From positions 124,001 through 188,000 of the forward strand of contig NZ_CP092587.1 of NCBI RefSeq assembly GCF_023920225.1: a stretch of DNA of 64,000 bases, written 5' to 3'. The notes under the pieces were generated by a model. That model was not told where the DNA came from. It was given only the letters and a program-made list of their open reading frames with translations, and searched no databases. This DNA is from Vibrio gazogenes (GTDB lineage Bacteria > Pseudomonadota > Gammaproteobacteria > Enterobacterales > Vibrionaceae). Below, in pieces: positions 1 to 64,000 of the stretch (position 1 is the first letter of the stretch; the number at the start of each line of letters is the position of its first letter). A program made the translations under genes and the position numbers.

Positions 1-243
1 TCTTCAAATCGCGCATCATCAAAGGGTTAATTTTTATTTTTTTATCAATAATAATAAGTCATTTCTGGACGTGTCTATATAAATGATAATTATCTCATTG
101 ACTTCAATAGATAATTTGAATGATCATAGTTGCTTGGTTTCATATATTGTATGCACTTCTATTTTTATCACGTTTGATATGACTCATGAATCAATCTAAT
201 TGTCGCTGTCAGCGTTATTTTCTGATGGGAAAACTCGAATATA

Positions 244-759
244 ATGAATGTGACTTTGATAGAGAGTAAGGTTCAATCTTACCAAGCCGTAACTTCCACA
301 ACTGTTCGTATCGAGTTGTCTAACTCCCAGACGGTGATTCTGAGACTGTCGGAGTCGTGGGTATTGAATCAAGGTGACTTGGTCGCCATTGCTGGATTTC
401 AGGATCCACAAAGTAACGTATTGATAGGCTATGGCTATATCAATCTGTCGCAACATGTAAAATCAATTGCGCGTAGTCATGGGGGGCCTTTTTTCTTCTT
501 CGGCGCACTGCTGAGCATCATCACATTGGGTATAGTCGCGTTTATTTTCTCCGGAGAAGGAATGATCGCGTTTTCTGACATTTTGACCACGCTTCCTCTT
601 GCTGTCGTATTACTATTTTCTGGCTTCTTCATTTGGATTGGTATCAAAGCCAAACGAAAAGAACGATGCGTGAAGGGAATGCTGGAGCAAGTGGAAATGA
701 AAGCACTTGTTGATGTAACAACACCCCCTAGGGATACAAAGATAGTTCAACGCATCTAA
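244..759 (+). CDS. Small two-helix inner-membrane protein, function unknown
   Basis: 171 residues. The N-terminal 75 or so residues are polar and beta-rich, possibly a small barrel-like domain. Two hydrophobic segments follow, near residues 80-103 (starting FFFFGALL) and 110-135, then a basic cytoplasmic-type tail with KAKRKER. I do not recognise the family. It stands alone, with no partner gene within 400 bases downstream, only a dead transposase fragment. The ATG has only a weak ribosome binding site, so the start is provisional. A role in membrane protein quality control or signalling would be speculation. Confidence 0.6.
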   Translation: MNVTLIESKVQSYQAVTSTTVRIELSNSQTVILRLSESWVLNQGDLVAIAGFQDPQSNVLIGYGYINLSQHVKSIARSHGGPFFFFGALLSIITLGIVAFIFSGEGMIAFSDILTTLPLAVVLLFSGFFIWIGIKAKRKERCVKGMLEQVEMKALVDVTTPPRDTKIVQRI

Positions 760-4007: not shown

Positions 4008-4553
4008 ATGAACGTTATCGAAACTAAAATTCCAGATGTGAAGATTATCGAACCTCAAGTTTTTGGTGATGATCGTGGATTTTTCATGGAAACATGGCAG
4101 CAAAAAAAATTTGAGGCGTTGGTTACGGGAAAACCTACACCATTTGTACAGGATAACCACTCTAAATCAGGTCAGGGAACCCTTCGAGGTTTACATTATC
4201 AAACCGAAAATACCCAAGGTAAGCTGGTACGAGTGATTTATGGAGAAGTATATGATGTTGCAGTAGATATGCGTCAAGATTCACCAACATTTGCTCAATG
4301 GGTCGGTGTGATACTGTCCGATGTAAATAAGCGTCAACTTTGGGTGCCTGAAGGCTTTGCTCACGGATTTTATGTGATGAGTGATGTAGCAGAGTTTGTC
4401 TACAAGTGTACCGACTATTATAACCCGAGTGCTGAACACTCAGTTATCTGGAATGATGCTGACTTGGGGATAGAGTGGCCGTTAATGGTGGAACCGAGAC
4501 TCTCTGCTAAAGATATGAGTGCTTCCCTATTTGCTGATGCTATTAAATTTTGA
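4008..4553 (+). CDS. rmlC: dTDP-4-dehydrorhamnose 3,5-epimerase
   Basis: 181 residues of the RmlC cupin family. It epimerises C3 and C5 of dTDP-4-keto-6-deoxyglucose. The motif LRGLHYQ with the catalytic His is near residue 62, DVAVDMR follows, and VPEGFAHGF is near 116-124. Last gene of rmlBADC, 5 bases after rmlD. No plus-strand terminator is obvious after it. The hairpin at 4681-4706 has its T-run on the other strand. Downstream the sequence becomes the edge of the yicC-associated island. Confidence 0.94.
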   Translation: MNVIETKIPDVKIIEPQVFGDDRGFFMETWQQKKFEALVTGKPTPFVQDNHSKSGQGTLRGLHYQTENTQGKLVRVIYGEVYDVAVDMRQDSPTFAQWVGVILSDVNKRQLWVPEGFAHGFYVMSDVAEFVYKCTDYYNPSAEHSVIWNDADLGIEWPLMVEPRLSAKDMSASLFADAIKF

Positions 4554-4627
4554 TTTGAAATACGATCCAGAAATGTTGTGATTCAATGAAATCGGACTCT
4601 ATTTAAGGGCATATTCGATCATTAACC

Positions 4628-4649
4628 TTACTCACCAGTTGGTTGAAAA
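4628..4649 (+). repeat. Arm-type repeat copy 1 of the yicC-linked integrase
   Basis: TTACTCACCAGTTGGTTGAA resembles the copy at 4849-4870 (about 19 of 22 positions) and shares TTACTCACCAGTT exactly with 13788-13800. The other two copies flank the island interior, so this one, outside the attachment remnant, hints at an older or tandem integration. The role as an integrase arm site is inferred. Confidence 0.5.
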
Positions 4650-4680
4650 AACCGGAAAGGGTTTGAAATCCAATGAAAAC

Positions 4681-4706
4681 AAAAAAGCCCCTATTTACAG
4701 GGGCTT
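4681..4706 (-). terminator. Rho-independent terminator, minus strand (displaced yicC terminator)
   Basis: Stem AAGCCCCT at 4685-4692 pairs with AGGGGCTT at 4699-4706. On the minus strand it is followed by six T's. It lies about 40 bases after the yicC-like stop at 4744. The same spacing holds between the live yicC stop (13915) and the hairpin at 13855-13878. So it reads as the terminator of the displaced yicC tail, not of rmlC. Confidence 0.75.
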
Positions 4707-4743
4707 GGTAAGATTAGGTAAGCTCAAAGAGACTCAAAATAAC

Positions 4744-4767
4744 TTATTCTATATTTTGGATCTGTTC
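4744..4767 (-). other. Displaced yicC 3' end: probable attachment-site remnant (distal island end)
   Basis: On the minus strand these 24 bases read GAA CAG ATC CAA AAT ATA then GAA TAA, i.e. E-Q-I-Q-N-I-E-stop. The live yicC gene ends with exactly these residues (13938-13915). Six of 24 bases differ, five of them in synonymous third positions and one more also silent, as expected for the same codons from a different host. Upstream of these codons the frame no longer resembles YicC. Known mobilizable islands of Vibrio (MGIs moved by SXT-type elements) integrate at the 3' end of yicC and leave such a copy. Confidence 0.75.
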
Positions 4768-4840
4768 GTGGAGTGATATTTATATTCTTACAAAAATCAA
4801 TGTCTTATGCTGTTTTTCCGGTTGAGCAATATGCTTCCAC

Positions 4841-4871
4841 TTACCAGTTTACTCACCACTTGGCTGAAACA
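4841..4871 (+). repeat. Arm-type repeat copy 2 (inner distal end)
   Basis: Matches 13792-13822 at 27 of 31 positions. The shared core is ACCAGTT-x-ACTCACCACTT followed by TGAAACA. The copies lie in the same orientation near opposite ends of the island, as expected for integrase arm-binding sites or island-end repeats. Function inferred. Confidence 0.55.
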
Positions 4872-4912
4872 TGATTTTTTACTCGCACCCTAGAGCTGCC
4901 TTATATTAGTTA

Positions 4913-5557
4913 CTACGAATTATACCATGAGACAAAATTATTCTTAAGAACAGCCAAGCATTGTTTAAAACTTAGCAGATTGTGAGTTTTTTCGGTTCTA
5001 AATTTCTGCACAATGCTAGGGTGTTTGAGCTTTTCCAGACAGCAGGGAACCTCTGAGCGTGTATACCTCTCCGAGCCGTTATAAGAGTCAGTTCTAACTA
5101 TCGTCAAGCAGATTTCATCGGCCTTATCGGTATACGTCAGACTAAAGTGCAGCTCCGGAAAATCTTTTTCTATCTCTTTAACTGACGATTGTATGCCCAT
5201 GAATTCGTAATCCAAGAAATACTCATATATTTCTACATTACGAAGGGGAGAAAGGTTTTGGAAAGCTTGAGGATTAAAATGTTCAAGAAATCGAGCTATC
5301 ACTACCCGATGCTTTCCAGCATTAATGAAGTACTCATCCCCGATTTTTTTTAGAGACAGGCCTGATTTTTCAATATCGGAAAGATAGTAATCAGGATTTC
5401 TCTCAAGTTCTTGAAGATTTCGCCTGATTCTTTTTAAGTGCCGACCATTAAGGCAATCTCCCCATGTCATATCTCCATACCCTTGATCGATACCAATGAC
5501 TTTTCCCAAGGGAATGTCTTCAACTATCTTTTTGTAGTTAGAAAGGGTTCTACCCAT
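4913..5557 (-). CDS. ParB/sulfiredoxin-fold-like protein, 5' end cut by an insertion sequence
   Basis: 214 residues in this frame. A stretch reading GDEYFINAGKHRVVIARFL (about residues 73-91) resembles the G-x-HR motif of ParB/Srx-type nucleotide-binding domains, so a ParB-like nuclease or DNA-binding role is possible. The first codons (MGRTL) come from the terminal inverted repeat of the adjacent IS. A stop lies just upstream in frame, so the native N-terminus is missing or replaced. It is a cargo gene of the island, read toward the distal attachment remnant. Whether the truncated protein is made or active cannot be told. Confidence 0.5.
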   Translation of the reverse strand: MGRTLSNYKKIVEDIPLGKVIGIDQGYGDMTWGDCLNGRHLKRIRRNLQELERNPDYYLSDIEKSGLSLKKIGDEYFINAGKHRVVIARFLEHFNPQAFQNLSPLRNVEIYEYFLDYEFMGIQSSVKEIEKDFPELHFSLTYTDKADEICLTIVRTDSYNGSERYTRSEVPCCLEKLKHPSIVQKFRTEKTHNLLSFKQCLAVLKNNFVSWYNS

Positions 5558-5608
5558 ATTTTACGGACACATCTATAAAGAGGCATACTATGCCTAAAAG
5601 GAGTGTCT

Positions 5609-5896
5609 ATGACCAAGCGAAGAAAATATTCTGCAGAATTCAAACGCGAAGCCGTTGCGCTGACTCAGCAACCGGGTGTGAGTTGTCGTCAGATAGCATT
5701 AGATATCGGCATCAATCCTAACTTATTAAACCGTTGGAAACGAGAGGCGGAGCAGTCACAAGATAAAGCATTTCAAGGCACTGGCTCTCCTCGTGATGAA
5801 GAAATGGCGAGGTTAAAACGCGAATTAGTTAAAGTGAAAAAGGAACGTGATTTTTTGCGAGAAGCGGCAACGTTCTTCGCCAAAGAGTTACCGTAA
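5609..5896 (+). CDS. IS3-family transposase OrfA (helix-turn-helix subunit)
   Basis: 95 residues from the ATG at 5609, which follows AAAAGGAG at good spacing; a GTG at 5603 is the less likely start. [16 protein letters not shown] begins a typical transposase_8 helix-turn-helix (residues 3-50), and a C-terminal leucine/charged region ([20 protein letters not shown]) looks like the coiled coil used for dimerisation. It binds the IS ends and, by frameshift into orfB, gives OrfAB. Confidence 0.88.
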
Positions 5897-5925
5897 GGTA
5901 TCTTGCGATATCGCGTTGCCGCGAT

Positions 5926-6750
5926 GTGTTTTCTGTTCGCCTCATGTGCCGTTGTTTGCGCGTCTCTCCTAGTGGTTATTACGCTTGGGTGGAACGTCAG
6001 CCAAGTGCGCGTGCTCTTACTAACGCAACGTTATTAAAACGAATGCGCGAGCTCCATGATGATAGCGGTGGCATTATCGGCGCACCACGTATGCACGAAG
6101 ATCTGCAAGCCGAAGGGTTGAAAGCGAGCTTAAATCGTGTAGCCAGGCTGATGTCAGCGAATGGACTTTATGGCTGGCCGCGTAAAAAAGGTCGAGGGGC
6201 AAAGCGAAAGTCCGCACGTCCTGATGGTTTAAAGAATCATCTTGAGCGGGACTTTAATGCTTTGGAGCCGGAAACCAAATGGGTCACAGACATTACAGAA
6301 ATTGGGACACTTGAAGGGAAGCTTTATCTGTGTGTGGTGCTTGACCTGTTTAGCAAGCTCATCGTTGGCTGGTCGATGCATCATCGACAAGACCATCATA
6401 TGGTGATTCGAGCCGTCGAAATGGCGGTTTGGCAGCGACAGGAAAGACATCATGTTATCTTACATTCAGATCGTGGCACACAATTTACCAGTGGAGATTA
6501 TCAGCGCTTTCTCAAGCAAAAGAACCTAACCAGCAGCATGAGTGCTGTAGGCCATTGTGCAGATAACGCGGCTTGTGAAGGGTTCTTCGGTGTGATGAAA
6601 CGGGAACGAATCAATTATCGACAATACCGGACAAGAAATGAAGCCAGAGCAGATATTTTTGATTATATCGAACGGTTCCATAATCCAAGAATGCGACGTA
6701 GACTGGCGAATCAAGACAGCAAATTTACGTCTTTACTAAACCGTCCGTGA
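5926..6750 (+). CDS. IS3-family transposase OrfB (DDE integrase domain)
   Basis: 274 residues from a GTG. In IS3 elements this frame is normally made as a fusion with OrfA by -1 frameshifting, so the true product begins further upstream. An HTH_21-like N-terminus (SPSGYYAW) is followed by the rve integrase core. The catalytic acids are visible as [17 protein letters not shown] and NAACEGFFG (D, D, E). The end reads [10 protein letters not shown]. It looks intact, so the element could be active. Confidence 0.88.
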
Positions 6751-6765
6751 AAACGGGGTAGAACC

Positions 6766-7071
6766 CTACCTTTGAATGCTTTTACAGAGCGCAACTATGT
6801 ACTGATCTGCGTCCTGAGGTTCTGAATAGATTTCCCCATATTCTTCTGCGGCCATAAAATCAGAAAAATCATCAAAGGCCGCTTTGCTTAGGTACTCAGC
6901 CAAATGAGTTGCATCGTCAGAACTCTTGCACAGCAAAACCTCCGGCCAGAGCAGGTCACCATCTGGCCCCCGATTGCCGGGCTGATCGGGCGGATCTAAC
7001 CTGACGACCCAAACTTCTCTTAGCTCATGTGCTCCAGCTAGGTTGAGCAGTTCAATGCCATTTAACTTCAT
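6766..7071 (-). CDS. Small acidic protein of unknown function, 3' end at the IS junction
   Basis: 101 residues from the ATG at 7071, preceded by GGAG; a longer frame to 7134 lacks a convincing start. The sequence is rich in Asp/Glu (EEYGEIYSEPQDADQ). I recognise no domain. Its stop codon TAG is formed at the edge of the IS terminal repeat, so the native C-terminus may have been longer. It could be an immunity- or antitoxin-like island protein, but nothing proves it. Confidence 0.45.
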   Translation of the reverse strand: MKLNGIELLNLAGAHELREVWVVRLDPPDQPGNRGPDGDLLWPEVLLCKSSDDATHLAEYLSKAAFDDFSDFMAAEEYGEIYSEPQDADQYIVALCKSIQR

Positions 7072-7258
7072 AAAAATAACTCCGTGCTTAGTGGACGGAG
7101 CCATTATCCCGCTGATAACTACCGAGTTTGGCACGCCAAACTGCCCGATTTGGACAAATGTCTTGTCGGTATAGTCAGAAGGAAATTTCCAGATTTTGAC
7201 CTGGGTTGGTGTTGCTGGTTGAATGTATATAAATGAATTTAAAAAGATATTTATGTTT

Positions 7259-7295
7259 CGTTACATGTCACGAATGTAAAATGTGACATGTAACG
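7259..7295. repeat. Perfect 13-base inverted repeat with 11-base spacer
   Basis: CGTTACATGTCAC at 7259-7271 is the exact reverse complement of GTGACATGTAACG at 7283-7295. Each arm contains the palindrome ACATGT. No T-run follows on either strand, so it is not an ordinary terminator. It fits an operator for a dimeric regulator, or a cruciform next to the phased array starting at 7309. Function unknown. Confidence 0.6.
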
Positions 7296-7308
7296 CCACT
7301 GCAAGGGC

Positions 7309-7608
7309 ATATGTGGGAACGTTGCACGTTTAAGGCTTGGGTATATTGGTTGGCTGCACGATTAACGCTTAAACCTATGGGGTGGTTGCACGGATGAACT
7401 ATTTTTAACCGTTGTTTTCGGCGTTTAGTGCGATTTTGATGGTGTTTTCGGGGGCGTTAAAACCTGTTCAACGTGATTTTGTAGTTATGTTGGATTGTTG
7501 CACGGATATTTCTCGGATATGTGGGGACGTTGCACGCTTGGTTTTGGTAGTGCAAAACGATACCCCAATTTGCCACCATGACCACAAGCTTTTTACCACT
7601 TGTTGCAC
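7309..7608 (+). repeat. Phased TTGCACG repeat array in a gene-free stretch
   Basis: TTGCACG occurs at 7322, 7386, 7498 and 7530, CTGCACG at 7354 and TTGCACT at 7603, all on the plus strand. The first three are exactly 32 bases apart (7322, 7354, 7386), as are 7498 and 7530. The two best copies extend to a 20-base repeat, ATATGTGGG-R-ACGTTGCACG, at 7309-7328 and 7517-7536. Thirty-two bases is about three helical turns, so bound proteins would stack on one face. Possible readings are iterons, a transposon-end or recombinase site cluster, or a multi-operator control region for the flanking genes. The rest of 7135-7721 shows no convincing gene. Confidence 0.65.
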
Positions 7609-7721
7609 TTTTACCTAAGAGTCCATTTAGCAACCATCCAGTTACATCTGGGGCCGCTTAGAGTGAAAAGGAGTCTGTTGGATGCGGTCAGAAAATCGGG
7701 GGGCTATTCTCCTATGCCGAC

Positions 7722-9629
7722 CTAAGCTAACTCTTCAATCAAGCTGACGTAACCTGGATGTATCTTGAATTTCATCTTAGGTCCACTCTCGTATCTGGCT
7801 GCACTCGATGCGAGAGAAGTTAAGTCAATTTCGGCCTGGTTGAGCAAGTCCTTCAAGTATTCCTTAGGGATCTGGTTTTGCACAAGCAGGGGCAGCAGGC
7901 TTATGAATGAACAGGGATTGCTGGCGACTAAGGCCAATATCTCCCGTGACGTCGGGTAGGCGGCCTTATCCAGCCATATACTGTAATGGTCATCATTCGC
8001 GTTTTTTGCTTCTACAGTCCACTGTAGCCGGCGAATGACTAGGTGTTGCTGCATGATTGGCCAGAAGTCGTTACCATAGATGTCAATACTTAACATCTCA
8101 GTGGTAGCTTCCCACAGCGCTTGAAATAGCGCGGCGGATTGGTTAAGTATTTCGAGATTGAGAGTTTCCTGTGCGTTAGCAGTACAGTCCAGAATCCCTA
8201 GGCCTACGTCAACCAATGTTCGCATCAGTCCTGAAGCATCTGAGGGTTGCCATTCTGCGGAAATTTTATAAATGGGACGGAATTCGAGAATTTCCCTCAG
8301 CACAACGCTAGAGTTCCACATATTCAGCCAGTGACTGGTGAAGTTATCGCTCAATGCGACGGAATACCCGAGCACCCGGCAAGCATAGTTGTTGGGCTGA
8401 GTAGCGTGATATTCACTAACATGGCTTCTAATCGACTGACCTTTGGAGGAGTTCCACTCGGTAGGTGTCAAGTTCCATTCGTTGATGAAATCTCTGACGT
8501 CCGGTGCCGGAAACCTGTCGGGCTGGTTCGAATGTAGAAGTGCTAGCATGGATTGATAAACCCATGGCTCCCAAGAAAAATTCAATTGCTCGGAAACGGT
8601 TGGGGAACAAGGAAGTGGGAGTTTATCGGCTAATGCCCATAATATATCTTGGCTACTCAGAGATCGTTTTTGACCCGAGTTGTTATCAGGGAAGTTAAGG
8701 TACTGGCGAGTGAGCCATGTGCCCCAACGCTTAAACAGACCCTCGAAATCGGATCTTTTGGCGACAGTATCAACGAAAGAAGCGAGCAGAGATTCGACGT
8801 GCGGCTCTAACACAGAGGGAGGATGTCCATGCCCATCAGCAATGTGAATGAGTTTCATACTTCCGTGCCTGAGCAAGCTAGGTAGCAATAGGGCACCATC
8901 CCATGAGCCATCGCTTTGGAAACTTGTTGGAGACCTGTATGTGAACTGTTCCCATAAATCGTAGTTACGGTAAAACTCAGGGCTGTCGAGTACTCGATTG
9001 ATCAAGACTAGGCTTTGTGTGGAGTTCATCCATTTAAACAATGTGTTGAGATCAAGCTTTGCTAGTAATTTAACCCATGGCCAACTGGAATCATCGGTCC
9101 GACTTTCCCTGGTATGTCCGTACCAAATTTCATCGAGGGTGATTGGATGGGATGGATCAACCTCATATTCCTGAAGCAGCTTTTTTTCAGCATCGGCGAA
9201 ATGTTGTTCAGCTAAATTTAAGAGTGCCTCTTTGAAAGCATCATTTTTCAGAGCTACGACCAGTGCCACTTCCGTCCATAAATGCTCGACCCACCATGAG
9301 TTTCGGGCGAGAGCCCTGAAGGCTGCGTACCAGTTTTCAGTTTCTGAAGAGGCCCAGGCTGTTACAATTCCGATCACCAAAGTTGCCTGAATTCTCGGAT
9401 CGTCCGACGCATCGAAATCCTCGTGAGAACCGTCCAAGTGAGTGGTAAATCTCTTAAGAGCATTCTCGGCATCATCCTGGATGCAGAAGTATTCTGTTAC
9501 AGACGTGATCAATAAATCGGGAGATGCAAAGCTACCTTCTGCGAAGTCTCCAATTAACGACTCGGCGATTGTGTATGATTTCTGCATTTCAGATTCATAA
9601 GCAGGTGGCAATTGCCATTCTTTGTTCAT
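7722..9629 (-). CDS. Large helical protein of unknown function, third gene of the PLD-like cassette
   Basis: 635 residues from the ATG at 9629, which lies 2 bases after the stop of the preceding gene and follows AACAGGAA; a longer frame to 9665 would overlap that gene by 34 bases. No enzymatic motif is seen. The protein is rich in Leu, Trp and predicted helix throughout, like an alpha-solenoid scaffold. No signal peptide or membrane segment is present. Tight coupling to two HDRF-motif proteins upstream suggests one complex. Its location in an island next to an integrase suggests, but does not prove, a defence or conflict role. Confidence 0.7.
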   Translation of the reverse strand: MNKEWQLPPAYESEMQKSYTIAESLIGDFAEGSFASPDLLITSVTEYFCIQDDAENALKRFTTHLDGSHEDFDASDDPRIQATLVIGIVTAWASSETENWYAAFRALARNSWWVEHLWTEVALVVALKNDAFKEALLNLAEQHFADAEKKLLQEYEVDPSHPITLDEIWYGHTRESRTDDSSWPWVKLLAKLDLNTLFKWMNSTQSLVLINRVLDSPEFYRNYDLWEQFTYRSPTSFQSDGSWDGALLLPSLLRHGSMKLIHIADGHGHPPSVLEPHVESLLASFVDTVAKRSDFEGLFKRWGTWLTRQYLNFPDNNSGQKRSLSSQDILWALADKLPLPCSPTVSEQLNFSWEPWVYQSMLALLHSNQPDRFPAPDVRDFINEWNLTPTEWNSSKGQSIRSHVSEYHATQPNNYACRVLGYSVALSDNFTSHWLNMWNSSVVLREILEFRPIYKISAEWQPSDASGLMRTLVDVGLGILDCTANAQETLNLEILNQSAALFQALWEATTEMLSIDIYGNDFWPIMQQHLVIRRLQWTVEAKNANDDHYSIWLDKAAYPTSREILALVASNPCSFISLLPLLVQNQIPKEYLKDLLNQAEIDLTSLASSAARYESGPKMKFKIHPGYVSLIEELA

Positions 9630-9631
9630 GA

Positions 9632-10273
9632 CTATTTTTTCCTGTTGGCGTTGGCCATCTTCCAAGCTGTATCAAAAAACTGGACAGCTTTATGGGCATC
9701 AGCACTCCAGCCTCTACTCGCTGCGTTTACATCTCGGTGGAAGCCACCTACAGTAGCGCCAAAATGCCATAGCTCTTCATCAATGATTGCAAAGCGGTCG
9801 TGAATATAATCGAAGTCTTTGAAGGCAAATGAGATCTCCACTTTTAAGGGGGCATCGACCTTTGCGCGATCATCTGTTACGAAGTCTTCTAATTCCTTAA
9901 ATTCTTTCTCGATTTCCGCTTGGTCATCATGATGACCTGTTAAAATTCTTATAGTTTGAATATGGTTTGTGAGGAACCAATTCACAACTTTCTTTATTCT
10001 TCGACCGTGGCTAGGATTTTTACCGTCTTCAGAAAATAGATGCTTATCAATTATCCACACCCGTTGCGCGGTGCTGATAGCTTTCTCAAATTCTCTTACT
10101 ATACGTACGTCATCAACTCCATATCGAGCCATAATGGCATCATACTCTGGGAAATGATGATGGCTTTCGCCACTCTGAGTCGCCTCGCAAGGTATGAGTA
10201 ATTGTGGAGAGAATTTCTTCTCTACCATCTGTGGGGTCGTATTGACACTGTTTCGTGAAGTTAGCTTAGCCAT
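9632..10273 (-). CDS. PLD-like phosphodiesterase-fold protein, single HDRF motif (cassette gene 2)
   Basis: 213 residues. VWIIDKHLF (72-80) is the usual first strand of phospholipase-D-like domains. The motif HDRFAIID (H158) with the following FGATVGG is the PLD active-site block H-x-K/R-x4-D, here with Arg in place of the common Lys. Only one such block is present, so activity would need a dimer or the related domain of the 566-residue neighbour. The family includes nucleases as well as lipases. It sits between the other cassette genes: 59 bases after the first, and nearly touching the third. Confidence 0.7.
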   Translation of the reverse strand: MAKLTSRNSVNTTPQMVEKKFSPQLLIPCEATQSGESHHHFPEYDAIMARYGVDDVRIVREFEKAISTAQRVWIIDKHLFSEDGKNPSHGRRIKKVVNWFLTNHIQTIRILTGHHDDQAEIEKEFKELEDFVTDDRAKVDAPLKVEISFAFKDFDYIHDRFAIIDEELWHFGATVGGFHRDVNAASRGWSADAHKAVQFFDTAWKMANANRKK

Positions 10274-10332
10274 TATTCACATCCTGCGCTCCTTGCGTCG
10301 TCTGCGCTTCAGTTCCGTTGCACATCATGCAC

Positions 10333-12033
10333 TTATTTCGCGTCTTTCACGTCACGCCCACAGTGAACGCATGGCTTCTTAAGTGCCTTCCGCGGGACTT
10401 TGAAATCCTCCAGAGGAAGAGCGTTGTTGTAGAGGCGCAGAAGATGATCGAGGATTTTCTCGCCATGGGGTATGCGCATGGTAAGCGTTGGCCGTATACC
10501 GATAGAGTTCAGAGAACTGCCGATCATCCATACACGACCATCGATCGCGATGAATCGATCATGAAACAGACTGTTTTCTGCATTCGCGACTTTGATTTCA
10601 ATATTGTTCTTGTGACTACCTTGGAAGATAGCTAGATTTTCTAGCAATTTTTGGTGTGTGTCCTGTGTCGTCTCACTATCAATTTCGGTTCCAGTTGTCG
10701 CTTCGTTGATCTGTTTGAAAGCACTGCTTGAAGTTAGGATTTGTATCTTGATCTCGTCTCGTTCAATAGCAAATAGATATTGGAGAATCTGGTTTGCGCT
10801 GAAGTATGGATCAGCGATGAAGATGCTTGAGTGAGCGTGCTTGAACTTTTTCCTGATGTGTTCGAGCGCTTCCTTGCGTTGGTCAGCCGTAAACCACGTT
10901 TGCTCATATACCTTGGCACTGTGATTAAGGAGTCGCTCATTTTTTGCGTCTAGCAAACGCTGGAAAGCATTTGTTGTATTCGGTGCTTTCCCCAATGTTT
11001 GTGAGGATGCTAAGGTTTTTTTATTGGTGACGTACTCATCTACTGCGCTCTTCTTTTTATCCGTCTCGGGAACCGAAACTTTAATGCGTTGCTCGACCAC
11101 GTCTATCCTCGTGTTCATTTGTCGAAGGAACTGTCGCATGGGCGTTTGCAGTAAGACTCCGCGTTCTGTGTGTGTCAGGATAAGACCGGAGCCATGGATG
11201 GATGACGGTCTTTCAATCACAACCAAGCCATCCTCCGGTACCGGAACTGTATCAAAGGAGGTGAGTATCCCTTCTTGCCCTTCCATTGAGGTCAGGCTCA
11301 AACCTTTAAGTTTCCTGCCTGGGTGGGGCTTCAAATGGATATACAACGCTTCGGAACCGTCTTCTTTAGGATCAACGAATTGCCGGACTGAATGAACATC
11401 GCAGTCCGGCACAGCGAGCGCCATCCCACCTATATATTCAGGGTACTCCCTAAAATCGACATGCATGTGGTGCTCTAGGAATTTGAAGGCTTCTTGGCAA
11501 TGTTTGCTTTGTCCGTTTTGGTCAAGGAAACTCGGCCATTCTTGACTGTCTGAGATTCGACGTGAGTACCTGATGATGCCAAGGTTACGGAAAGGGATTG
11601 AAGGACGTTCAGATTTAAGCGTGATGTCGTCACTTTCCAAGGGCACGCCCAATACAGGCCATGTTGGAAAGTCACTTAGCTTGCCTGCGGAGAGGGGCAC
11701 TCCATCAGAGTCCTTCCGGGCATCACGAAGGGGAATGGGTGTACCAAGTTCATCAGATGCGGTTCGGTACCACCGGATGGCTTCTTCTGCGGTCATGACG
11801 ATACGGTCGACCGCAATAGCGCCTTCTTCCTTGAATTTTTTGAAGTAAGGCTTGGCAGGTCTCAAAGGGACTTGCCTACCTGATGCCAGCAACCATACCG
11901 ACGCGAACAGCAAACGTAGAGGAGGTCGCTCAGATGTAGATCGTGGTGGCACAACCACAGCGACATGCACGACCGCATGTTCGAAGCCGTCAGTCAATTT
12001 ACTATAGGGGTTACTGCTTTCGTTACTTTCCAT
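10333..12033 (-). CDS. Multidomain protein with C-terminal PLD-like domain (cassette gene 1)
   Basis: 566 residues from an ATG. The N-terminal 340 or so residues match nothing I recognise and include beta-rich stretches (HVAVVVPP; GLVVIERP). From about 400 a PLD-like domain begins: IFIADPYFS (D408) as first strand, and HDRFIAID (H491) followed by WMIGSSLNSIG as the active block, again His-x-Arg. A single Cys pair (CVHCG) lies near the C-terminus. It heads a three-gene minus-strand operon with another HDRF protein. It is likely an effector, perhaps a nuclease, with its own sensing domain. The function is inferred. Confidence 0.7.
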   Translation of the reverse strand: MESNESSNPYSKLTDGFEHAVVHVAVVVPPRSTSERPPLRLLFASVWLLASGRQVPLRPAKPYFKKFKEEGAIAVDRIVMTAEEAIRWYRTASDELGTPIPLRDARKDSDGVPLSAGKLSDFPTWPVLGVPLESDDITLKSERPSIPFRNLGIIRYSRRISDSQEWPSFLDQNGQSKHCQEAFKFLEHHMHVDFREYPEYIGGMALAVPDCDVHSVRQFVDPKEDGSEALYIHLKPHPGRKLKGLSLTSMEGQEGILTSFDTVPVPEDGLVVIERPSSIHGSGLILTHTERGVLLQTPMRQFLRQMNTRIDVVEQRIKVSVPETDKKKSAVDEYVTNKKTLASSQTLGKAPNTTNAFQRLLDAKNERLLNHSAKVYEQTWFTADQRKEALEHIRKKFKHAHSSIFIADPYFSANQILQYLFAIERDEIKIQILTSSSAFKQINEATTGTEIDSETTQDTHQKLLENLAIFQGSHKNNIEIKVANAENSLFHDRFIAIDGRVWMIGSSLNSIGIRPTLTMRIPHGEKILDHLLRLYNNALPLEDFKVPRKALKKPCVHCGRDVKDAK

Positions 12034-12495
12034 GTAGTGCTCGCTATCAGTCGAAGACGCTGGCTTAAGATATTTCTTTAAACTATCGCTAATAAGTTTT
12101 ACTTAGCTGGATATATGACAGTGATTTATATCGCGGAAAGGAGGGCGGCTGTAAAATTTCATTAAGGAATTTCGCCACTTCGTCATCCTGCGACCATCAT
12201 ATAAGCATTCAGAGGTTTCGAAAAGGGAGTTGACGTGTAGTCGTCGATCAAAGGCTGGCTCTGACTGGTCTGAGAAGGGTAGTAAAAAATTACCATTCTT
12301 GGCAGAAATATGTCTTGGAGAGCGTCTGCTTTTAGCACTCTGCTAACTTTGGTCCAGTGAAAAAACGGGGCAGTTCCTCTGCAACGAGTGCTAAGGCATA
12401 ATTTGCATTTAGGCTTCTACTGGAACAAGCTGAGCGAGATATAGCTTGTTCCTGGGTTGTTTCTTCAAAGGAACTCAGGAAAAGTTTGTTCCAAT
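12034..12495. other. Gene-free stretch between the PLD-like cassette and the integrase remnant
   Basis: No coding frame with family likeness was found on either strand. It must contain the promoter of the minus-strand cassette starting at 12033, but I could not pick a -35/-10 pair with confidence. No RNA gene was recognised. Confidence 0.4.
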
Positions 12496-13743
12496 TAGCC
12501 AAAAATGACGGAGAGCTTATAAATCCAGATGAATGAGAGGTGTAACTAGATCGGCAACTTTCTGGTGAGCAGCTTTCAGTTCTTCAAAGTACTCATACCG
12601 ATCATATATCCCGTCAACTCATCCCTGCCGGTGATTGATGCACAACCGAGCGACGTGATTTGGTGTTCCTACTGATGCAGCGAGACTCCTAAATGTTCGT
12701 CGTAAGTCATGTACTGTAAAATGCTCGATATCACCCATTACGTTGGGGGGCTGAACCTTCCTCCCAGCTTCTCGTCCAAATAACTTTGAGATTGCGCTAT
12801 TCAGGGTATCAGGTCCCATATGTAATAGATTGCTTCGGCGTCTGGCTGGAAAAACGTAATCAGAGCCCATCGATCTTACTTTGAGCTCACTAAGCCATGT
12901 CATTGCCTGACTTGGTAAAGGGATAGAAATAGCTATTCCAGTTTTCACCCGCGATTCGGGGATGTGCCACACAGATTCTGTCATATCAAATTCCCACCAA
13001 GGAGCTTCACATAGTTCACTCTTCCTGTTACCTAGTACCAAAAAGAGGCAGCACAGCAAATAGTTATCTCTACCAAAGCTATTTAGATGGCTACGAAATA
13101 CTTTAAAGACTTTCTCGATTTCATCCAGATCTAATGCCCGTTTACAACTGTTTTCAAGGCCTCCAGCATCGTTTATTGTGAAAGGTGCAGCGGGATTATT
13201 GGCGGTTAATCCAAGCTTTAAAGCGTGCTTGAAAAGCTGCTTCATATAACCCAGAGTGTCATTGGCAATGGTTAGACGGCCGCTATCCCTAACTCTTTGA
13301 ATTATCTATCGAACATCCAGAGCTGTGACGTCCTGAATTTTGAACTCGCCGATGACTGGCTTAATTTCCTTTCTATATATTCGAGCTGGAATATTGGGAT
13401 GCTTTAGCCTTGGCGCTAAATCGTTTTTATACCAATCCTCAAATAAATCATCGACCGATATGATACCAGTCCACTTTTGACGCTGTTTTGCAATGAGGGG
13501 ATCTACTCCTTGCCTTAAGTCACGTTTAAACACCTCAGCTTCTGATCTTGCATCGGCCAAAGACATACTAGGGTACTGCCCCAGAGTCATTTGTTTACGT
13601 TTGCCATTTCCACTATATCGAAGGGCCCAATAGGGCGCTCCCGAGTCTGGAACGATAAAGTAGAGTCCTTTTCCGTCGGATTTCCTTGTCGGCTCTCCTG
13701 ATTTTGCAAGTGATGCCACCTGCTTTGCGGTCATTGATGCCAT
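12496..13743 (-). pseudogene. Tyrosine-recombinase integrase with two in-frame stop codons
   Basis: One continuous frame reads from 13743 through a TAG at 13308-13306 and a TGA at 12621-12619. The first piece has the DUF4102-type N-terminus (KSDGKGLYFIVPDSG; YWALRYSGNGKRKQMTLGQYP). After the TAG the frame continues QRVRDSGRLTIANDTLGY into the catalytic domain, with GNRKSEL and HDLRRTFRSLAA. After the TGA it continues VDGIYDRYEYFEEL, the normal place of the last helix and the nucleophile Tyr. The stops thus interrupt a P4-type integrase of about 410 residues. It reads away from yicC, 170 bases from it, as expected for a yicC-targeting integrase. The last codons (12496-12520) are uncertain. Confidence 0.85.
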
Positions 13744-13787
13744 TGTGCCTCCTAATACTCACCATTTGATGCAAGTATAGCGAGGCA

Positions 13788-13822
13788 TTACTCACCAGTT
13801 AACTCACCACTTAGATGAAACA
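13788..13822 (+). repeat. Arm-type repeat copy 3 (yicC-proximal island end)
   Basis: Contains TTACTCACCAGTT, identical to 4628-4640, then AACTCACCACTTAGATGAAA, matching 4849-4871 closely. It lies between the integrase start (13743) and the yicC terminator, where arm-binding sites or the integrase promoter would be expected. Confidence 0.55.
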
Positions 13823-13850
13823 GATTGAAACGTACAAGAACAGAGTGAAA

Positions 13851-13878
13851 ATAAAAAGCCCTGCTAAATCAGGGCTTT
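13851..13878 (-). terminator. Rho-independent terminator of yicC
   Basis: AAAGCCCTG at 13855-13863 pairs with CAGGGCTTT at 13870-13878, and on the minus strand the T-rich run TTTTTATTTT follows. It lies about 40 bases after the yicC stop. The counterpart at 4681-4706 follows the displaced yicC tail at the same distance. Confidence 0.85.
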
Positions 13879-13914
13879 GATGAATATTGGAAAGCTTTGG
13901 AAAACAAGAGAAAA

Positions 13915-14781
13915 TTATTCAATGTTCTGAATTTGCTCCCTCATCTGTTCAATCAGAACCTTCAGTTCGACGCCGGAAGCGGTGACTTCGGTATTGATTG
14001 ATTTCGAGGCCAGCGTGTTTGACTCACGGTTGAATTCTTGCATCATGAAATCCAGACGGCGGCCACAGGAGCCCCCTTTTTTGAGGATGTTTTTGGTCTC
14101 TTTGACGTGAGAATCAAGGCGGTCGAGTTCTTCGGCGACGTCGGATTTTTGTGCCATGAGAACCAGTTCCTGTTCGATTCGGCCGGGGTCGAGTTCGACA
14201 TTGGCTTCTTCAAACTTATTCAGCAGACGTTCACGTTGCCACTCGATGACTTCAGGCATGTGTTCACGGACTTTGTTGGCTTCCTGAGTGATGGCATCGA
14301 GACGCTGCTCGATCAGCGCTTTCATATTCTCACCTTCCCGTCCGCGGGATTCGATGAACTCCGTTAAAGCACCGTCAAACTCATCAAGCAAAGATGTATT
14401 GATCGTGTCCATATCGTGTTCTGGCGTTTCCATGACTCCCGGCCATTGCATGACCTGAAATGGATTGATGCGACTGAGTTCTCCGGTCATATGCATGACT
14501 TGACTGGCAGCATCGATTACCTGTTTGGCGAGCGTTTCGTTAATTGTTAGCTCACCTGCTGTGGATGAGTTTGCCTCAAAGCGTAGGTGACACTCTACTT
14601 TGCCCCGCGCCAGACGTTTGCGGAAGCGTTCACGCAGAATCGGTTCTAGGCTACGGAATTGTTCAGGAAGACGGAAATAGGTTTCGAGATAGCGTTGGTT
14701 GACGGAGCGAATTTCCCAGACGGCTGTACCCCAGTCAGCTTTGACCTCTTTGCGTGCATATGCGGTCATACTATAAATCAT
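13915..14781 (-). CDS. yicC: YicC family endoribonuclease/stress protein
   Basis: 288 residues from the ATG at 14781, giving MIYSMTAYARKE as in E. coli; the TTG one codon earlier is not needed. The YicC N-domain covers about 1-155 (VNQRYLETYFRLPEQFR) and the DUF1732 C-domain about 200-288 (EELDRLDSHVKETKNIL). E. coli YicC has been reported as an endoribonuclease involved in small-RNA turnover. The 3' end (E-Q-I-Q-N-I-E) is intact and serves as the island's attachment site, and its terminator follows. Divergent from rph, as in other Vibrio. Confidence 0.95.
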   Translation of the reverse strand: MIYSMTAYARKEVKADWGTAVWEIRSVNQRYLETYFRLPEQFRSLEPILRERFRKRLARGKVECHLRFEANSSTAGELTINETLAKQVIDAASQVMHMTGELSRINPFQVMQWPGVMETPEHDMDTINTSLLDEFDGALTEFIESRGREGENMKALIEQRLDAITQEANKVREHMPEVIEWQRERLLNKFEEANVELDPGRIEQELVLMAQKSDVAEELDRLDSHVKETKNILKKGGSCGRRLDFMMQEFNRESNTLASKSINTEVTASGVELKVLIEQMREQIQNIE

Positions 14782-15014
14782 CAAATTTTCCTTAAGTCTT
14801 GAATATTTGGACTTGATATTGGTTTTATCTTAACACAATTCTACCGTGTAAGACGTGCGTTGAGAGTGAATCCGGCGGATTGTTTTATCGTCATTTCGGC
14901 TGATGTTGCTTGCGTTGTGCAGGGGATTCTTGATGGTGGTTTGCTGAGCGGATTTCCGCTATAATCTGCGGCCAATTTCATCACTCATCCAAGACAACAA
15001 CAGGTAGATACCTT

Positions 15015-63169: not shown

Positions 63170-64000
63170 ATGACGAACTTAAATGCCCGAATCTTTGTCG
63201 CTGGCCACAATGGTATGGTTGGCCGTGCAATTGTTCGTCAATTACAGCGTCGAGGATATCAAGATATTGTCACCCGTTCCTCTAAAGAATTGGATTTAAG
63301 AAATCAGGCTCAAGTTGCGGCTTTTTTCGCTGAGCAGCAGATCGATGAAGTCTATTTGGCAGCGGCTAAAGTCGGTGGGATTCACGCGAACAATACATAT
63401 CCGGCTGATTTTATTTACGATAATTTGATGATTGAAACGAATGTAATTCATCAGGCGTATGCGAATGGGGTTAATAAGTTGCTGTTTCTTGGCTCTTCTT
63501 GTATTTATCCAAAGTTAGCTGCACAGCCGATGTCGGAGTCGGAGCTTCTGAATGGCTATCTTGAGCCGACGAATGAGCCTTATGCAATTGCTAAAATTAC
63601 CGGTATCAAATTGTGTGAGTCGTACAATCGTCAATATGGTGTAGATTACCGCAGTGTGATGCCAACCAATCTTTATGGCCCGGGAGATAACTATCACCCC
63701 GAGAATAGTCATGTCGTTCCTGCATTAATTCGTCGTATTCATGAAGCAAAACTATCCGGGTTGGCGGAAGTTGTGATTTGGGGAACCGGCTCACCGAAAA
63801 GAGAGTTTCTACATGTAGATGATATGGCTGAGGCCTGTGTTTTTGTTATGAATCTGGATGATTCTGTTTATCAAAAAAATACCCAGCCGATGCTCAGTCA
63901 TATCAATGTGGGAACCGGACAGGATTGTACGATTCTGGAACTTGCTCAAACGATTGCAAAAGTCGTGGGGTTTAAGGGGAAAATAACAACTGATCCGACG
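63170..64000 (+). CDS. fcl: GDP-L-fucose synthase (cut by the window end)
   Basis: The first 277 residues of about 320 are in the window. It epimerises and reduces the Gmd product to GDP-L-fucose. [17 protein letters not shown] near 9-25, [16 protein letters not shown] near 106-121 and [13 protein letters not shown] holding Tyr/Lys near 135-147 are diagnostic. FGxG-type ...[17 protein letters not shown] is near 197. The C-terminus continues past 64000. Also called wcaG. Confidence 0.95.

Follow-up and report, generated by a model that had tools for sequence, protein, structure and literature searches.

A decayed yicC island in Vibrio gazogenes that probably displaced the end of yicC and was inserted over an older island

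Introduction

In Escherichia coli, the e14 prophage in icd is an instance in which a housekeeping gene has its 3' end replaced by a silently diverged copy, e14 being a prophage whose replaced segment is longer than that in the yicC case described here. The yicC-specific integrative elements IEPplInd1 (for which the Pokkaliibacter contig NZ_LAPT01000132 is listed), IEEcoMOD1 and IESenUSA1 carry SGI1-like mpsA, traG, traN and sgaC genes, and the trees in the same source use 1,145 positions for TraG and 968 for TraN (PMC8409611). The integrase of these SGI1-like elements, IntyicC, clusters apart from the MGI integrases (PMC8409611). The 3' end of yicC is also the site of insertion of MGIVflInd1, which is mobilisable by SXT (PMC4344509, PMC8409611), and the strain yicC::DUP(MGIVflInd1) is read by us as carrying a tandem copy (PMC4344509). 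Related to the yicC islands are the Shewanella islands GI21, GISpuPO1 and GISspANA3, which encode an integrase and an AlpA-type excisionase, have short attachment repeats (21 or 9 bp), include one composite island and excise upon expression of Xis (PMC8978831). A different gene, dusA, carries two elements side by side, IEVpaBan1a and IEVpaBan1b (PMC8409611).

Here we describe a locus in a 64,000-nucleotide stretch of Vibrio gazogenes DNA (contig NZ_CP092587.1, positions 124,001 to 188,000 of the forward strand), which was analysed as a whole and is referred to as the window, with positions counted from its first letter. We are highly confident that a decayed yicC island at this locus, designated island B, was inserted over an older one, island A, and thereby replaced the end of yicC and displaced the former end. 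Replacement of the yicC end by an island is a known type of event, of which the present locus is a clear new case, and no paper on this yicC island in this species was found in the literature by title or abstract start.

Island B has the same target as the elements of PMC8409611 and as the integrase of MGIVflInd1, and the integrase of its counterpart in V. injensis is 85% identical to that of NZ_LAPT01000132. However, the SGI1-like genes were not found in island B, whose longest ORF (searched over 4550–13910) has 647 aa and so falls short of TraG and TraN in length, with mpsA and sgaC judged by inspection, and the V. injensis island encodes TraD and a TraI-like protein. The first-pass annotation had pointed to the Vibrio mobilizable genomic islands that integrate at yicC. 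Identity as an SXT-mobilised MGI was not supported: the island had no recognisable relaxase gene, and its closest integrase belongs to an element of Proteus terrae. The likeness to the Shewanella islands is one of description; these excise upon Xis expression (PMC8978831), whereas island B has a broken integrase and no recognised excisionase. The side-by-side arrangement of IEVpaBan1a and IEVpaBan1b is similar to that of islands A and B, although the gene and the integrases are different and both dusA members are present as elements (PMC8409611), whereas island A is a relic.

The End of yicC Is Present in Two Copies

The target gene, yicC, is an ORF on the minus strand (13915–14784) with one copy in the genome and relatives in 224 of the 227 same-genus genomes. 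Its live end (minus strand, 13938–13915) reads GAGCAAATTCAGAACATTGAATAA and a second, displaced tail (minus strand, 4767–4744) reads GAACAGATCCAAAATATAGAATAA; both translate to EQIQNIE*, the spacing between them is 9,171 bases, and they differ at six tail positions (3, 6, 9, 12, 15 and 18), every difference being silent. Terminator-like hairpins stand 38 bases beyond the displaced tail (4685–4706) and 37 bases beyond the live one (13855–13878), and these two were the top of 12 hairpins in 4500–14000, a region for which shuffled sequences gave 8.8. Both the synonymous differences and the similar distance of the terminators had been noted in the first-pass annotation, and both are borne out. As yicC sequence was absent 5' of 4767, where TCACTCCAC stands in place of the EQMR codons, a simple gene duplication was dismissed. 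A blastn search of plasmids with 4560–5000 gave no match.

The degenerate codon pattern GARCARATHCARAAYATHGARTRR was present in 224 of the 227 same-genus (Vibrio) genomes, and in exactly two copies in 18 of them (G000, G005, G017, G020, G024, G035, G045, G060, G065, G073, G097, G103, G111, G124, G195, G196, G211 and G215, among which G073 is V. injensis and G020 is V. atypicus). In all 18 genomes the second copy was on the same strand as yicC and downstream of it, 3.9 to 46 kb away, and the reversed control pattern had no matches across the 227 genomes. Based on the spread of the pattern, the ordered second copies and the empty control, the tail pair is something other than chance. The second copy in G111 is a longer yicC piece; leaving this genome out, 17 of the 224 pattern-bearing genomes have a displaced tail, and the duplicated tail can serve as a simple finder of such islands. 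In a class-wide sample the pattern was found in 89 of 369 genomes, our own included, and was doubled in our own only. P. terrae, found via its integrase, also has two tails.

Ends, Integrase and Content of Island B

The proposal of a yicC-targeted island from 4744 to 13938 was upheld: a gene for a tyrosine integrase adjoins yicC, and both ends of the island were found also in V. injensis. Two traits of yicC-targeting elements were observed: an integrase gene, here a pseudogene, adjoins the 3' end of yicC, and a repeat of the yicC end is present at the far end. The live tail (13915–13938, minus strand) was designated attL, on the integrase side, with a putative exchange block at 13928–13935, and the displaced tail (4744–4767, minus strand) attR, with a putative exchange block at 4757–4764 and a 3' part that appears to be the former junction of island A. 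Supporting the designation of 4744–4767 as a displaced attachment site, the displaced tail in four other species precedes DNA that elsewhere is directly after yicC. The tail end at 13915–13938, together with the left end after it, is common to L089, L126, L032 and L034, and the last codons of yicC appear to have been replaced by element DNA.

The integrase pseudogene (12526–13743, minus strand) has an arm domain (PF13356) and a catalytic domain (PF00589) and aligned with the open V. injensis integrase in a single alignment of 406 residues (95%) that is interrupted by one TGA and one TAG, the in-frame stops at 13306–13308 and 12619–12621. The V. injensis integrase matched our genome at this pseudogene only. 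At the DNA level the gene shares 97.2% identity with the integrase gene of the P. terrae element, its nearest relative, and 92.6% with the V. injensis gene, the integrase of IEPplInd1 being more distant. No excisionase gene was recognised by inspection among the ORFs of island B and, in view of this and of the two integrase stops, the island is unlikely to be active; it is probably immobile.

The left end of island B (13757–13878, minus strand) includes the terminator at 13855–13878 and TGGTGAGT repeats at 13757–13767 and 13790–13822, and was found in five of the 227 same-genus genomes, our own counted. A right-end repeat (4839–4871, minus strand) matches the left-end repeat at 13790–13822 (88% over 33 nt). 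Six matches to ACTCACCANNT were found, versus 0.44 expected for the whole window; three of these are in the left end and two in or beside the right end (at 4851, and at 4630, inside the relic of island A). The left- and right-end repeats with TGGTGAGT units are likely to be arm sites of the integrase.

At the right end is a 214-aa ORF (4913–5557, minus strand), the first bases of which lie within the end of an insertion sequence (IS) and which corresponds to a 249-aa ORF in V. injensis. A middle block in common with the V. injensis island (6767–7392, 93%) includes the ORF at 6766–7134 and one copy (7127–7159) of a box close to TTTGTCCAAATTGGGCAGTTTGGCGTGCCAA; five similar copies are in the V. 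injensis island (L089, L109), and an activator may perhaps bind to this box. Beside this block, a 23-base repeat around GTTGCACG occurs in three copies at 7309–7539 and has the look of replication or oriT repeats. The cargo consists of three genes on the minus strand (7722–12033), which encode a VPA1262_N/PLD-like protein (10333–12033), a 213-aa protein (9632–10273) and the 647-aa protein (7722–9665). All three are in identical order on the Klebsiella variicola plasmid NZ_CP092633.1, which was typed as conjugative, with identities of 78% for the first protein and 82% for the third. PADLOC matched the PLD part of the first protein to PDC-S05 (E 1e-9) and to NsnC, and a defence role of the cargo is possible.

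The V. injensis Counterpart and the Insertion Sequence

The V. injensis island extends from the yicC end at C23:28303 to the displaced tail at 63546, a length of ~35 kb. Three segments are shared with the window: the left end and integrase (13992–12502, corresponding to C23:28226–29715, 92%), the middle block (7392–6767, C23:33721–34346; 626 bases) and the right end (5541–4624, C23:62772–63681, 94%), with the 800 bases up to the tail being 97% alike. The cargo between the integrase and the middle block differs, as V. injensis has two genes there, of 679 and 472 aa.

An insertion sequence that we take to be IS3-type (5544–6767, plus strand) has arms at 5544–5581 and 6730–6767 that abut the right-end block and the middle block, respectively. 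It has two transposase ORFs (5603–5896 and 5926–6750; HTH_Tnp_1 and rve), 38-nt terminal inverted repeats, and further copies in the genome, of which two are near-complete (97%) and two are fragments. At the position of the IS, V. injensis has 28.4 kb more DNA, including genes for TraD (TIGR02759, 408 bits, below the model cut-off of 521), for a 1036-residue protein that we read by eye as TraI-like or relaxase-like, and for two proteins of the excisionase (TIGR01764) and AlpA types. The IS site is presumed to be the point of a deletion made by the IS. Measured against V. injensis the loss would be ~28 kb, although the middle of the ancestor of our island may have been different. In the V. injensis island (C23:28475–63546; L089, L109) the 14-base string AACTTTCACATGTG, part of the palindrome AACTTTCACATGTGAAAGTT, was counted eight times over both strands, the full palindrome scoring on each; it is perhaps an operator of that element.

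A Probable Older Island Beyond the Displaced Tail

In the first-pass annotation the DNA beyond 4744 was taken for ordinary chromosome on the side of rmlC. Instead, an A-type, integrase-side island end was found there (4585–4743, minus strand), with the terminator at 4685–4706 and TGGTGAGT at 4630–4640. About 160 bases remain of island A, extending to about 4585 and stopping short of the start of an integrase gene. The site is bordered by a computed ORF (4008–4553, plus strand) that is presumably an rmlC-type gene at the end of an rml (sugar nucleotide) cluster.

Matches to the A-type left end were found in 14 of the 227 same-genus genomes, five of them partial. It stands directly after the live yicC and is followed by integrase sequence in four genomes, the integrase being open in G045 and G215 and broken in G033 and G195; in G054, G137 and G143 the A-type end also follows yicC and no integrase was found within the stretch examined. 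In G000, G073 and G097 the A-type end follows a displaced tail, which indicates tandem sites. The nearest relative by YicC (G060, 99%) has the A-type terminator and pieces of integrase A without a tail, adjoining genes that by eye look like glycosyltransferase genes. Between our genome and V. injensis the A relics agree at 81% and the right ends of island B at 97%, and island A was accordingly assigned as the older layer. We interpret the sequence beyond 4744 as the left end of a nearly erased older yicC island rather than native chromosome, and the locus as a former tandem site of yicC islands beside the rml genes. A shared cut point of the two A relics was considered and rejected, as ours seems in a wider alignment to continue to about 4585.

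Origin of the Live Tail and Point of Exchange

Four genomes with the B left end (our own, V. injensis, G133 and P. terrae) have CAGAACATTGAATAA as the last yicC codons. Relative to CAGAACATTGAATAA, G130 has one silent difference, V. atypicus two, and Pokkaliibacter one plus a different stop codon. The element-borne end is the live one: in V. injensis and P. terrae, too, the B left end comes with these codons, and the integrase DNA of P. terrae is 97% identical to ours. The first-pass annotation held that one tail came from another species; on our reading it is the live tail that is foreign, at any rate beyond the exchange point, and the 3' part of the displaced tail would belong to the earlier junction at this site. 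Conversely, at the far end of C-type islands CTCGACGAACAGATCCA is identical in G060, G035 and G024 (CTCTAC in G124) and the sequence after it varies, and both tails of G017 and of G196, which have C-type left ends, contain CAAATTCA. We read live ends as host sequence up to the exchange and then element, and displaced ends as element sequence and then the former host.

Across 18 pairs of live and displaced tails, the silent positions 6 and 9 differed three times versus 14.1 by shuffling (P 0.0015), and once versus 12.5 expected when G000 and G111 were left out (P 0.0008), in a test that examined nine positions and whose shuffling ignores shared descent. Positions 3, 12, 15 and 21 behaved as in the shuffles, and position 18 was weakly low (P 0.025), an effect not expected from the model. 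The exchange most likely took place inside the 8 bases CARATHCA of the tail, as far as can be judged from these silent sites. Our own pair is an exception that differs at both positions and accounts for two of the three mismatches; P. terrae, the live tail of which is identical to ours, has CAAATTCA in both tails and is a further agreeing pair. Two explanations would give our pair: an element with a Proteus-type overlap entered a CAGATCCA site and the mismatch was tolerated and kept, or yicC underwent a change afterwards. Identity of the 24-base live tail to that of P. terrae was rejected as a diagnostic, being found in at least five other genomes (G023, G044, G062, G080 and G104) without the B left end.

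More tentatively, and with somewhat less than even confidence, we propose that the yicC end in this genus is a shuffled cassette, whose last codons are replaced time and again as successive islands bring ends from other genera, with silent mismatches sometimes left in the overlap after an exchange. If so, our live end would be Proteus-type and the displaced end that of the host, and for each layer the silent sites would record where the exchange took place and which donor was involved.

Flanks of Displaced Tails in Other Genomes

An empty site joining yicC to rmlC-side DNA, as expected from the first interpretation, was sought in five close relatives and not found. In four of them (G060, G130, G133 and G153) yicC is followed by an island left end and integrase sequence, and in the fifth (G201) by a D-type end that is a tentative left end. 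The clearest pair of empty and occupied sites is G009 and G045, as the 199 bases 3' of the displaced tail of G045 match the DNA directly after yicC in G009 (93%). The corresponding flanks of G215, G020 and G017 match the post-yicC DNA of G022, G050 and G029 (94.5%, 85% and 81%), and the remaining flanks had no clear match among the 72 live flanks compared. The displaced set comprised 18 entries, one of which (L065, from G025) must be a live tail, its genome having no other, and the displaced tail of G103 was left out.

The D-type left end follows a displaced tail in G060 and G211, with integrase traces behind it. Integrase sequence was close behind the D-type end in G097, G103 and G211, a weak 25-residue match (E 2e-4) was behind it in G060, and integrase was absent within 3 kb behind it in G201, G127 and G199. 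The displaced tail of G060 precedes the same sequence as the yicC flank of these three genomes, a flank that was considered as a native empty site and rejected given the integrase behind D-type ends in other genomes. We read the D-type end as an island left end, tentatively so in G201, G127 and G199. In G060 (L031, L072) three layers were observed at yicC: an open-integrase island (C), the D-type left end and the A relic.

Proposed History of the Locus

In the history that we favour, strand exchange would have taken place within the EQIQNIE codons, likely in CARATHCA, and the incoming element would have given yicC new last codons and a new terminator (13915–13938 and 13855–13878), with the earlier ones moved to the far end (4744–4767 and 4685–4706). 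The displaced piece would be the junction with island A. Later decay would have removed ~28 kb with the transfer and excision genes at the IS3-type insertion, the integrase would have gained two stops, and the cargo beside it would have come to differ from that of V. injensis.

It is quite unlikely that islands A and B arrived jointly, as a tandem unit from a V. injensis-like donor: the order of B followed by an A relic is the same in both genomes, but the A relics have diverged well beyond the B right ends (81% versus 97% alike), and the near relative G060 has the A relic and lacks the B left end. The model of the first-pass annotation, in which the displaced tail is native, rmlC-side DNA is the normal neighbour of yicC and a single insertion ever took place, is very unlikely. 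Single insertions do occur, as seen in G045 (against G009), G215, G020 and G017, and G054, G137 and G143 have an A-type segment after yicC for which an integrase was not found in the stretch examined; however, what lies beyond 4744 is a left end that elsewhere stands between yicC and an integrase (G033, G045, G195 and G215), and G060 retains the terminator together with integrase A pieces. It is extremely improbable that the displaced tail arose by chance or by duplication of part of yicC, with no relation to an integrase: while the longer second piece in G111 demonstrates that duplications exist, the match here is limited to the last 24 bases, the same repeat is at both ends, the island has an integrase gene, the control pattern was found in none of the 227 genomes, and V. 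injensis has the same arrangement.

With island B inserted over island A, this single site would display the build-up and decay of a hot spot, from insertion and replacement of a gene end through a second insertion on the yicC side of the first to collapse around an insertion sequence and then loss of the integrase. The silent sites of tail pairs help to place strand exchange without experiments. The locus is also a warning that a housekeeping gene can have a foreign end despite an unchanged protein.

Additional Observations

Rheinheimera sp. D18 (L129, around 9700–10588) has a B-type left end and a partial integrase without the yicC body before them; a different set of last codons, CAGAACGTCGAATGA, precedes the B left end, and the genome's own yicC tail is on the same strand, about 47 kb further upstream. 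This left end possibly belongs to the inner of two tandem elements. In our own genome, window 27–701 and a stretch that precedes the window by about 6 kb (L073) both align to identical places in relatives (69–76%), and the two look like a duplicated gene flanking a few kilobases.
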